Source: a virus. Taken from it: a stretch of DNA of 21,317 bases. Below, piece by piece: positions 3,428 to 5,794 of this stretch (position 1 is its first letter; every line of letters begins with the position of its first letter). The notes below the pieces were generated by a model. The model saw nothing but the letters and a program-made list of their open reading frames with translations, did no database searches and was not told the DNA's origin. The DNA is taken from positions 1-21,317 of IMG/VR virus record IMGVR_UViG_3300045120_000058. The stretch is one strand, 5' to 3'. The position numbers and the translations under genes are program-made.

Positions 3428-3733
3428 TTAGCGACGACGGGCGGCGGGGAGCGCGGGAAGCGTCGCCTTCGCGGCGCGCGGGCGGGGGAGCGTCGACGCG
3501 AACCCATGCGGGCGTCGCGGTTTCGGCGTGCGCGGCCGTTTCAGATCCGCGAGCACATCCTCACGGCGCCAACGGTACGGGTACTTGTCCCACGGGCGCG
3601 GGGAGAACGTCCCTTGCTGGACCTGGCGCCGGATCGTCGATTGAGACAAGCGATAGATCGGCGCGAGCTCTTGCAGGGTCAGGACGACGGGTAACGCGTC
3701 GAGATCGGAAACGGGGACGGTCGACGGTTTCAC
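3428..3733 (-). CDS. Helix-turn-helix protein, excisionase-like
   Basis: A 101-aa protein starting at GTG, preceded by AAGGGAG 8 nt upstream. Residues about 16-65 form a MerR/excisionase-type winged HTH: VLTLQELAPIYRLSQSTIRR, then QGTFSPRPW and YRWRREDVLADL. The C-terminal third is basic and Pro-rich (RPRTPKPRRP), suited to DNA contacts. It is divergent from the integrase gene and separated from it by a 310-bp control region, the usual arrangement for an Xis/AlpA-like directionality factor or an early regulator. No other candidate for excisionase or lysogeny repressor was found, so it may serve either role. Confidence 0.75.
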   Translation of the reverse strand: MKPSTVPVSDLDALPVVLTLQELAPIYRLSQSTIRRQVQQGTFSPRPWDKYPYRWRREDVLADLKRPRTPKPRRPHGFASTLPRPRAAKATLPALPAARRR

Positions 3734-3770: not shown

Positions 3771-3880
3771 ATCGCGCGCGGTTCGGGGTCGCCCCGTGGG
3801 GCGTCCCTATGGGGCGACCCCTCGTGTAAATCACGACAAATTAAGGGTTTTTATGTGTTGCCTCACGCCTTCACACGGCG
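3771..3880 (+). repeat. Left arm of inverted att-like repeat flanking the integrase module
   Basis: This segment shares three blocks, in the same order, with the reverse complement of 5678-5794: an 11-mer (3771-3781), a 29-bp element (3797-3825, two mismatches) and CGCCTTCACACGGCG (3866-3880, exact). The distance between the last two blocks is 40 nt here and 39 nt in the right arm. The 15-mer equals the anticodon stem-loop of the tRNA-Val fragment, so this arm looks like a second, inverted core site without the rest of the tRNA. Confidence 0.75.
3785..3821. repeat. GC-rich 11-bp stem-loop
   Basis: GGGGTCGCCCC at 3785-3795 and its exact complement GGGGCGACCCC at 3811-3821, with a 15-nt loop. 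Related GGGGYCGCCCC/GGGGCGCCCC elements occur at 5397-5432, 5499-5521 and 5736-5759, all around the integrase module. It could act as a bidirectional terminator or a protein-binding site. Confidence 0.6.
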
Positions 3881-3967
3881 ATCTAGGTTCCAACGCGAAA
3901 AACCCACGCGCGAAATAGCTAGAGAGTGTTATGAAGGAGCGGAAATATATTGTCAAGGTTTCAGGCT

Positions 3968-3987
3968 AGAATTAGTCAGAATTAGAC
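3968..3987 (+). promoter_or_regulatory. Tandem 10-bp repeats, possible Int arm or regulator sites
   Basis: AGAATTAGTC (3968-3977) is followed directly by AGAATTAGAC (3978-3987), one helical turn apart and overlapping a TAGAAT -10-like hexamer (3967-3972) about 70 bp upstream of the integrase start. The AT-richness stands out in this genome. Such phased repeats fit arm-type integrase sites or an operator. Confidence 0.4.
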
Positions 3988-4043
3988 GATTGTGTGATAG
4001 GACACACCGCGCCGCGCGCGCGCTCTAGCGGAGTTTTGACGAC

Positions 4044-5249
4044 ATGCCACGACAACACGCCCGGATCCGTATCGGCCCCGGAATCTATCGCGACGGCGAC
4101 GCGCTCGTCGGCGAAGTACGGATCGGCAGTTCGCGCGCGGGAACGCAAACGCGCGCGCGTGAGCGGTTCCCGTTAGGTACCGCGGTAGCAGATATCAAAG
4201 CCTGGCAACACGGCGCGCGTCACGAGCTCGCGACCGCGGCGCCGCCGAGCGCGCCCGGGCGCGGATCGCTCGCGGCCGATATCGCCGACTTTGTCGCCGC
4301 GCTCCCCGAGGGGCGGTACCGCGTCGACACCGAAGATCTACTGTCTCACTGGTCGCGGAGCGAATTAGGCGCGCGCGACCGCCGCACGATCACGCGTTTA
4401 GATTTGCTCGCGGTGATTTCGGAGTGGACGACCGCGGGCGCCGCGGAGAATTCCTGTAACCGTCGCTTGTCGCGGTTGCGGAAACTGTACCGCGCGTTCG
4501 ACGGGCTCGACGACGGGAACCCGACCGACGCGATCCAATACTTGCGCGAGCCCCGCGCCGAGCCCCGCGACATCCCCGCGCGGATCGTCCAGTTGATCGT
4601 GTCGTCGCTTCCCGACCAGGGGCGCGCGAAACGCGGCGAAACGCGCCCGACGGTGTCGGAAACAAAAACCCGCTTACGCGTCATGGCGTGGACAGGGATC
4701 CCGCCCGAAACGCTTCGCCGCGTGCGGCCGCGGGATCTGGATCTGGATCACGCGCGCGTCTATCTCCGTCCACGGCGTAAAGGCAAAGGGGTACATGGCG
4801 CGTGGGTGACGTTGCTCCCGCTCGCGATCGACGCGTTTCGCGACTTCGCGGCTGTGGGGTTGTTCGGGCGCGCCTGGTCGGGGTCCAGCGTCGGGAAAAC
4901 CTGGCGCGTGGGGATCGCGCGCGCGACGGCCGCGGCCGACCGTGTCGCCGCCGAAACGGGCGATCGCTCATGGGCCGACGAAATCGCCGCGCTCCCCTCG
5001 AAATGTCGCCCGTACGATTTGCGTCACGCGTTCGCGTCGGAAATTTACCGCGAGACTGGCGATATCGGCGCCGTGTCGGAGCTCCTGCAACACGCGTCGT
5101 TTGAAACGACGAAACGGTACACGCGGGGCGCCGTGTCCGCGCGCGTCGCGGCCGCCATTGCGAAGGCGGGCGCCGCGTACGCGACGATCCCCACGATCCC
5201 CGCGCCCGTCGCGCCAGCGTCCCGCTTGCGCCTGGTCCGCGGCGGATAA
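4044..5249 (+). CDS. int: Tyrosine-type site-specific recombinase (integrase)
   Basis: A 401-aa protein with an N-terminal DNA-binding part (about 1-180) and a C-terminal catalytic domain (about 185-365). Visible motifs are the beta-hairpin RRKGKG (244-249, candidate catalytic Lys), YDLRHAF (324-330, in place of the usual H-x-L-R-H), H350 in LLQHASFETT, and Tyr359 in KRYTRG as the likely nucleophile. The usual TGLR box (Arg I) reads TGIPPETLRRVRP at 217-229, so the canonical Arg position is Pro. It is encoded opposite to nearly all other genes. A tRNA-Val fragment lies about 400 bp downstream and serves as the probable attP. The ATG at 4044 has a GGAG 10 nt upstream, a rather long spacing. 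Confidence 0.93.
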   Translation: MPRQHARIRIGPGIYRDGDALVGEVRIGSSRAGTQTRARERFPLGTAVADIKAWQHGARHELATAAPPSAPGRGSLAADIADFVAALPEGRYRVDTEDLLSHWSRSELGARDRRTITRLDLLAVISEWTTAGAAENSCNRRLSRLRKLYRAFDGLDDGNPTDAIQYLREPRAEPRDIPARIVQLIVSSLPDQGRAKRGETRPTVSETKTRLRVMAWTGIPPETLRRVRPRDLDLDHARVYLRPRRKGKGVHGAWVTLLPLAIDAFRDFAAVGLFGRAWSGSSVGKTWRVGIARATAAADRVAAETGDRSWADEIAALPSKCRPYDLRHAFASEIYRETGDIGAVSELLQHASFETTKRYTRGAVSARVAAAIAKAGAAYATIPTIPAPVAPASRLRLVRGG

Positions 5250-5260
5250 GGGGCGCCGAG

Positions 5261-5386
5261 ATGACGACGCCCGATAAAATGAACCGCGTGATCGCGGGTA
5301 TACGGATCGTCCTGGTCCTGGTCGGCCTGGCGGTCGCCGCCCTGGCGGTGATCGCGGTGATTTGGATCGTCTTGCGTAAGCGGTAG
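5261..5386 (+). CDS. 41-aa single-helix membrane peptide
   Basis: A short gene 11 nt after the integrase stop, on the same strand. The N-terminus is polar (MTTPDKMNRVIAG), then about 22 hydrophobic residues (IRIVLVLVGLAVAALAVIAV, continuing to IWIVL), ending in RKR. This is a clear single transmembrane helix with a positive C-terminus. GAG lies just upstream of the ATG. It is the only obvious membrane-embedded small protein and hence the only holin-like candidate, but its coupling to int points equally to a lysogenic function such as superinfection exclusion. No family is recognised. Confidence 0.6.
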   Translation: MTTPDKMNRVIAGIRIVLVLVGLAVAALAVIAVIWIVLRKR

Positions 5387-5387
5387 T

Positions 5388-5432
5388 CCCCCGTCGGGGG
5401 CGCCCCATTTCCCCCGCCTGTGGGGCGACCCC
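5388..5432. terminator. GC-rich inverted repeats after the membrane peptide
   Basis: CCCCCG-T-CGGGGG (5388-5400) starts one base after the tag stop at 5386. It runs into the palindrome GGGGCGCCCC (5397-5406) and a GGGGCGACCCC element (5422-5432). It is probably a transcription stop for the int operon, although no T-run follows, so the terminator call is tentative. Confidence 0.4.
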
Positions 5433-5498
5433 GCGGCGAAACGCTCCCCGCCCGAATTACCCCCGCCCCCACGGGCGATCGTCGCTCCAGGGCCGATC

Positions 5499-5521
5499 GG
5501 GGCCGCCCCAGGGGGCGCCCC
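5499..5521. repeat. GC-rich composite palindrome
   Basis: GGGGCCGCCCC (5499-5509) followed by GGGGCGCCCC (5512-5521) and AT. GGGGCGCCCCAT occurs three times here (5397, 5512, 5750), and a diverged form lies at 3798. These elements appear only around the integrase module as far as I could see. Confidence 0.6.
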
Positions 5522-5552
5522 ATGTTTCGCGATCGTGTATATTTCGGCCTAT

Positions 5553-5568
5553 TTTTAACTAATTAAAA
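5553..5568. repeat. AT-rich inverted repeat
   Basis: TTTTAA (5553-5558), CTAA, TTAAAA (5563-5568): a perfect 6-bp inverted repeat within an AT-only patch, unusual in this GC-rich genome. It lies about 75 bp from the tRNA fragment. It could be a bend or an IHF/Int-arm type site; this is inferred from location. Confidence 0.4.
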
Positions 5569-5643
5569 TCAGGCTTGGGGCGGCCCGCGACGCGGCCCCC
5601 GTTGGGACCGCGTCTGTAAGTGATTGATTCGGTGGGATTTAAG

Positions 5644-5693
5644 TAGTGGGCGCTACTGGACTCGAACCAGTGACCCCCGCCGTGTGAAGGCGG
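5644..5693 (-). other. attP: 3' part of tRNA-Val(CAC)
   Basis: Read on the minus strand this is a tRNA from the anticodon arm to the 3' end: stem CCGCC, loop TTCACAC (anticodon CAC, Val), stem GGCGG, variable GGGTC, T arm ACTGG-TTCGAGT-CCAGT, acceptor strand AGCGCCC, discriminator A, then CTA. The matching 5' acceptor GGGCGCT and D arm are absent, and the sequence before the anticodon stem is not tRNA-like. This is the usual form of a phage attP that restores the 3' end of a host tRNA gene on integration, with strand exchange probably in the anticodon stem-loop. It is not a functional tRNA gene by itself. Confidence 0.85.
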
Positions 5694-5794
5694 GAATCGA
5701 CGACGGAAGTCGTTGTCTCTACTCGACTTCGACGAGGGGTCGCCCCACAGGGGCGCCCCATGTCCCCCAATCGCGTCCAATTTCCGCGCGCGAT
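5678..5794 (-). repeat. Right arm of inverted att-like repeat flanking the integrase module
   Basis: Reverse-complement partner of 3771-3880. It holds the 15-mer core at 5678-5692, the 29-bp GC element at 5732-5760 and the 11-mer at 5784-5794. The 29-bp element can fold as a nested hairpin (GGGG, CCCC, TGT, GGGG, CCCC) about 46 nt after the end of the tail-fibre gene, so it may also terminate late transcription. Confidence 0.75.

Follow-up and report, generated by a model that had tools for sequence, protein, structure and literature searches.

The window, the whole stretch of DNA analysed here, is a 21.3-kb (21,317-nucleotide) IMG/VR contig of a small phage represented by a metagenome record only. 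In the ORF scan, all identified genes are leftward except the integrase gene int (4044-5249, + strand). To the left of int lie an HTH_17 excisionase-like gene, xis (3428-3733, - strand), and replication-initiation-like, Holliday-junction resolvase-like and HNH genes, and on the right side of the window are genes for TerS, TerL, capsid/protease, connector and tape measure. The scanned window ORFs include no recognisable CI-like repressor, although several small ones have no assignment, and no complete tRNA gene was found in the window. Two scans of genome contigs for the host or a prophage state gave nothing useful.

The int gene encodes a tyrosine integrase of 401 residues with the tyrosine recombinase catalytic domain (PF00589). 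The predicted fold, a model of moderate confidence (pLDDT 72 and pTM 0.51), contains three domains: an N-terminal beta-sheet/helix domain (residues 8-65), a SAM-like core-binding domain, and the catalytic domain. This fold matches XerA, Tn1549 Int, and lambda Int in the PDB. At residues 324-327, the usual HxxR motif is replaced by YxxR (PYDLRH) across the whole family alignment. No Int match was found among annotated phages, and the matches listed for plasmids are distant recombinases only, with identity below 30%.

Downstream of int is the 47-nt 3′ half of a tRNA-Val(CAC) (5647-5693, - strand), whose anticodon stem-loop forms the core of the phage attachment site attP (5678-5692), as the first-pass annotation had stated. 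The 15-bp core contains a 7-bp loop, TTCACAC, which is the presumed overlap. In nearly all Int relatives among the viral contigs, a tRNA 3′ half, from Val-CAC, Arg-TCT, or Arg-CCT, is found just downstream of int. The well-resolved attPs have a recurring layout of 11-12 bp GC-rich sites on both sides of the core. Counted from the anticodon stem, these are a tandem pair at -66/-53, one reversed site at about +86 to +107, and a second tandem pair at +152-172/+164-184. By repeat spacing across relatives, the window has the P′ arm pair at -66 and -53 (5736-5759), the single reversed site at +107 (5577-5586), and the outer P-side pair at +172 and +184 (5499-5521), all on the - strand. The arm motif was unmatched in a few distant attPs (L120, L122, and L125).

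The spacing of the arm-like sites (in the window, 5499-5759) is common to the genomes, and their sequences are GC-rich and genome-specific, for example GGGGNNNCCCC; the site centre is CGA, GAA, or CAT, and GGGATGGCCCC in L116. These genome-specific sequences suggest fast co-evolution with a binding protein, and we infer from the sequences that Int binds the GC-rich sites. The GC-rich elements were also considered as hairpins or terminators, which was ruled out because the repeats of L114 (GGGGCGGTAAC) are non-palindromic. In L007 (5932-6010), ARAGORN joins the attP 3′ half and the outer flank into a complete tRNA-Val(cac), and this call is probably spurious.

The region between int and attP also holds small genes. 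In the window, a small membrane-protein-like ORF (5261-5383, + strand) lies inside the int segment, and a cargo gene at this position, on the strand of int, is also present in L107, L109 (5246-5512), and L115. In L110 (6371-5985) and L112 (6734-6342), in contrast, the cargo gene is on the late side of attP and on the opposite strand, so that its position is mirrored about attP.

Upstream of int is a second copy of the core. The 15-mer CGCCTTCACACGGCG is found exactly at 3866-3880 (+ strand), 178 bp before the int ATG, and at 5678-5692 (- strand), which bears out the exact inverted repeat noticed in the first-pass annotation. Within 3 mismatches there are no further sites in the window, although about 2.8 would be expected by chance, so it is the exactness of the left core that is notable and not the number of matches. 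The first-pass annotation had also described a 29-bp GC-rich element at 3797-3825 and 5732-5760 on opposite strands, 40 and 39 nt from the respective cores. Both copies are present (93% identical) and the distances are correct, but the element is no special unit: as judged from its sequence, it is the P′ arm of attP, one of several arm-type sites there, with more at 5499-5521 and 5577-5586. The 11-mer ATCGCGCGCGG that had been included in the repeat is indeed present on both sides (3771-3781 and 5784-5794), but it is poorly conserved in relatives and probably incidental. The left P′-type arm contains three GC-rich sites (3785-3795, 3798-3807, and 3811-3821, + strand) at -80, -67, and -54 from the start of the left core's stem. 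The left site thus consists of a P′ arm and a core copy, inverted relative to attP, and has neither the tRNA half nor the GC-rich P-side sites, so it resembles an inverted tRNA-distal prophage end (attR).

Between the left core and int is a leftward early promoter-like sequence that the first-pass annotation had overlooked, P_L (3928-3956, - strand), composed of TTGACA (3956-3951), a 17-bp spacer, and CATAAC (3933-3928). A stricter default promoter scan passes over it because the -10 hexamer ends in C. A sequence of this type, TTGAC(A/T/G) followed by a -10-like hexamer and mostly with a 17-bp spacer, occurs in 15 of the 16 relatives, with or without a left site, and we infer that P_L is an active promoter. 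Its leader spans the left core, which lies ~40-55 nt past the expected transcription start, and reaches xis, the first gene downstream. The inverted cores at 3866 and 5678 bracket P_L, a promoter by consensus only. As P_L lies between the left core and int, control is likely directed at the early operon and not at int alone. AT-rich direct repeats GAATTAGTC/GAATTAGAC (3967-3987, + strand) are located between P_L and int, upstream of int like the left site. They form a 17-bp invariant block, resemble the AAAATAGGC repeats on the P side of attP, and may be operator or arm sites.

The location of the left site in the divergent P_L/int region would suit an operator; that Int might bind its own promoter was one of the options in the first-pass annotation. 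Occupying the left P′ arm and core, Int would block transcription from P_L and/or Pint, possibly through a loop to attP, and set the balance of int and xis in the manner of autoregulated integrases, with no inversion involved. The AT repeats are kept in most relatives whether or not a core is present, all genomes have a single orientation, and autorepression by integrases at their att sites has been described (PMC2951348). We regard this as a serious candidate, if a tentative one. The same leader could also act as RNA, with the hairpin loop GUGUGAA pairing with the tRNA-Val anticodon loop, to which it is complementary, or as an attenuator. The leader of L107 does fold well (z -4.0), but the fold is weak in the window and L106 and unsupported in L109 (z +0.3) and L116 (z +0.9), and no Rfam match was found. 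The missing conserved fold largely refutes an RNA element, which is the least probable of the explanations we considered.

The first-pass annotation had named a missing left arm in close relatives as an outcome that would count against it; the comparison was made, and close relatives do carry the arm. The Val clade comprises four distinct genomes: the window, L106, L107/L108 (identical Int, counted once), and L109. In all four, the left core is conserved at 15 of 15 positions and lies at exactly -178, while only 38 of 90 columns (42%) are invariant in its flanks. The presumed overlap is kept at 7 of 7 bases; by our own estimate, the chance of seven invariant bases is 0.42^7 ~ 0.002. In the left region of these genomes, just three 17-bp blocks are invariant: one at the core (CGCCTTCACACGGCGAT), one at the P_L -35, and one at the AT repeats. 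A left site is also found in L116, which belongs to a separate clade, has an Int 60% identical, and uses tRNA-Arg(CCT) as its target. The left core of L116, at -181, matches the genome's own target core at 14 of 15 positions and at all 7 of the overlap (CGCACTCCTAAGGCG versus CGCCCTCCTAAGGCG), although the evidence for L116 is one short contig. The P′ arm spacing of the left sites is -67/-54 in the Val clade and -66/-54 in L116, compared with -66/-53 in attP, that is, within ±1 bp in both lineages. As the left core of L116 corresponds to its own Arg(CCT) target, the left core, by sequence, tracks the tRNA target in both lineages.

The best match to the genome's own core upstream of int has no mismatches in the four Val genomes and one in L116. 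In the relatives without a left site it has 4-6 mismatches, the same level as foreign cores compared with the 800 bp upstream of int (3-6 mismatches in 80 comparisons). The left site is thus present in 5 of the 18 resolved relatives and missing in 13, and no left cores beyond these five were found among the TerL-related loci examined. Since it occurs in two separate clades and is missing elsewhere, the site must have either arisen on two occasions or been lost several times. Another HTH (excisionase-like) gene, between int and attP, was seen in L110 (5615-5460), L111, L112, L113, and L119, and is confined to the sister clade without the left site.

These comparisons bear on whether the left site is a relic, as the first-pass annotation had allowed in proposing a trace of an earlier integration or duplication. 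If Int had recombined attP with a secondary site located between int and xis in a different copy of the phage, it would have left P′ arm, core, and unrelated DNA, exactly the attR-like product seen here. The distance from P_L to xis is larger in genomes with a left site (218-229 bp) than in those without (109-202 bp), and the site may have two origins. A pure trace is nevertheless disfavoured, because the flanks drift but the core does not vary, the arm spacing is kept within ±1 bp, and the same layout is found in a lineage with a different tRNA target; the position is also fixed at -178. We consider a relic improbable.

An operator would have no need to copy the 7-bp overlap or to follow the tRNA target, as the left core of L116 does. 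Mutating the core in KplE1 did not relieve the repression that Int exerts on its promoter (PMC2951348), which suggests that the conserved core exceeds the needs of an autorepressor. Inversion was ranked slightly above the operator model. We tentatively favour a reading in which the left element is a half-att site recognised by Int in the P_L-xis interval, equivalent to attR in having P′ arm sites and a full C-O-C′ core, and recombines with attP on the phage circle or, in the prophage, with the end proximal to the tRNA. Crossover at both cores would invert 3866-5692, a segment of ~1.8 kb containing int and P_L. After the flip, P_L would be uncoupled from xis and the early operon, and int would be co-directional with the early operon. 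The left junction would become a complete attP and the right junction a P′+core half-site, so the two states would be mirror images. Inversion in silico restores all five arm sites, the core, and the tRNA half in the correct places. The outcome would be a self-flipping promoter/integrase switch affecting lysis/lysogeny; both the strand exchange between the left site and attP and the effect on lysis/lysogeny are presumed. That the integrase doubles as a DNA invertase, with each flip rebuilding attP and toggling the early operon as a lysis/lysogeny switch, is a stronger claim, and we think it rather unlikely.

Self-inversion had been among the options raised in the first-pass annotation. The layout is suited to it and the flipped state rebuilds a full attP, but no inverted junctions were found among the IMG/VR contigs. 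The junction pattern RCGCCTTCACACGGCGGGGGTCA had four matches in viral contigs, in unrelated attPs with flanks unlike the left outer flank; CGCCTTCACACGGCGAT matched known loci and three unrelated ones only, and the P_L block pattern matched known loci only. The orientation is the same in all five distinct left-site genomes and in the relatives without the site. Under free equilibrium flipping, a single orientation would have a chance of ~3%, a figure that doubles if agreement in either direction is accepted. The overlap identity could also reflect descent, provided that each left site is a recent derivative of the attP in its own genome. Inversion by Int is therefore no more than possible. 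The attR-like anatomy of the left site would also fit a decoy that stabilises the lysogen, in which the left site of the prophage would rival the true attR as the partner of the tRNA-proximal end at excision. The restored tRNA would then be broken. Val-CAC and Arg-CCT tRNAs are usually wobble-redundant, so their disruption could be tolerated. We consider such a decoy very unlikely.

The attP resembles those of lambda-type heterobivalent integrases: the core is in an anticodon stem-loop with the 7-nt loop as the presumed overlap, int adjoins attP, and arm-type sites lie on both sides in a layout like the five arm-type sites of lambda. It differs in that the arm-like sites are GC-rich and genome-specific and that an extra inverted P′+core half-site precedes int. 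In fimS and the Bacteroides capsule promoters, short inverted repeats around a promoter are acted on by a site-specific recombinase. Inverted repeats likewise bracket a promoter here, a predicted one, whereas the recombinase would be the phage integrase, the repeats are att cores, and int is inside the segment; unlike in those switches, a second orientation was not found among the left-site contigs. In the yeast 2-micron FLP/FRT system, a recombinase and its inverted targets are on the same circle, as here, where there is no sign of replication amplification. In the open-licence papers searched, we found no case of an inverted half-att site by which an integrase gene and an early promoter are bracketed, an absence that is weak evidence; the related cases there were integrases under autoregulation and a phage tyrosine invertase with a dedicated function (PMC6109161). 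The latter, of the bifidophage Rin shufflon, is predicted to invert phage DNA carrying receptor-binding genes and is separate from the integrase (PMC6109161), whereas here the integrase itself is proposed. If inversion is true, one enzyme would integrate the phage and toggle early transcription, combining phase variation and lysogeny in one module. The KplE1 intS-type autoregulated integrase gene has integrase-type sites in its promoter region, and candidate sites of this kind lie upstream of int here. KplE1 has only one att site, which overlaps the promoter and can lose its core without loss of repression (PMC2951348), whereas here the additional copy stands apart, is inverted, and has a core that matches the target. 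Even as an operator only, a half-att site that lies in the early leader and tracks the target would be an unusual form of integrase feedback, and it would explain the need for the core to follow a change of tRNA target.
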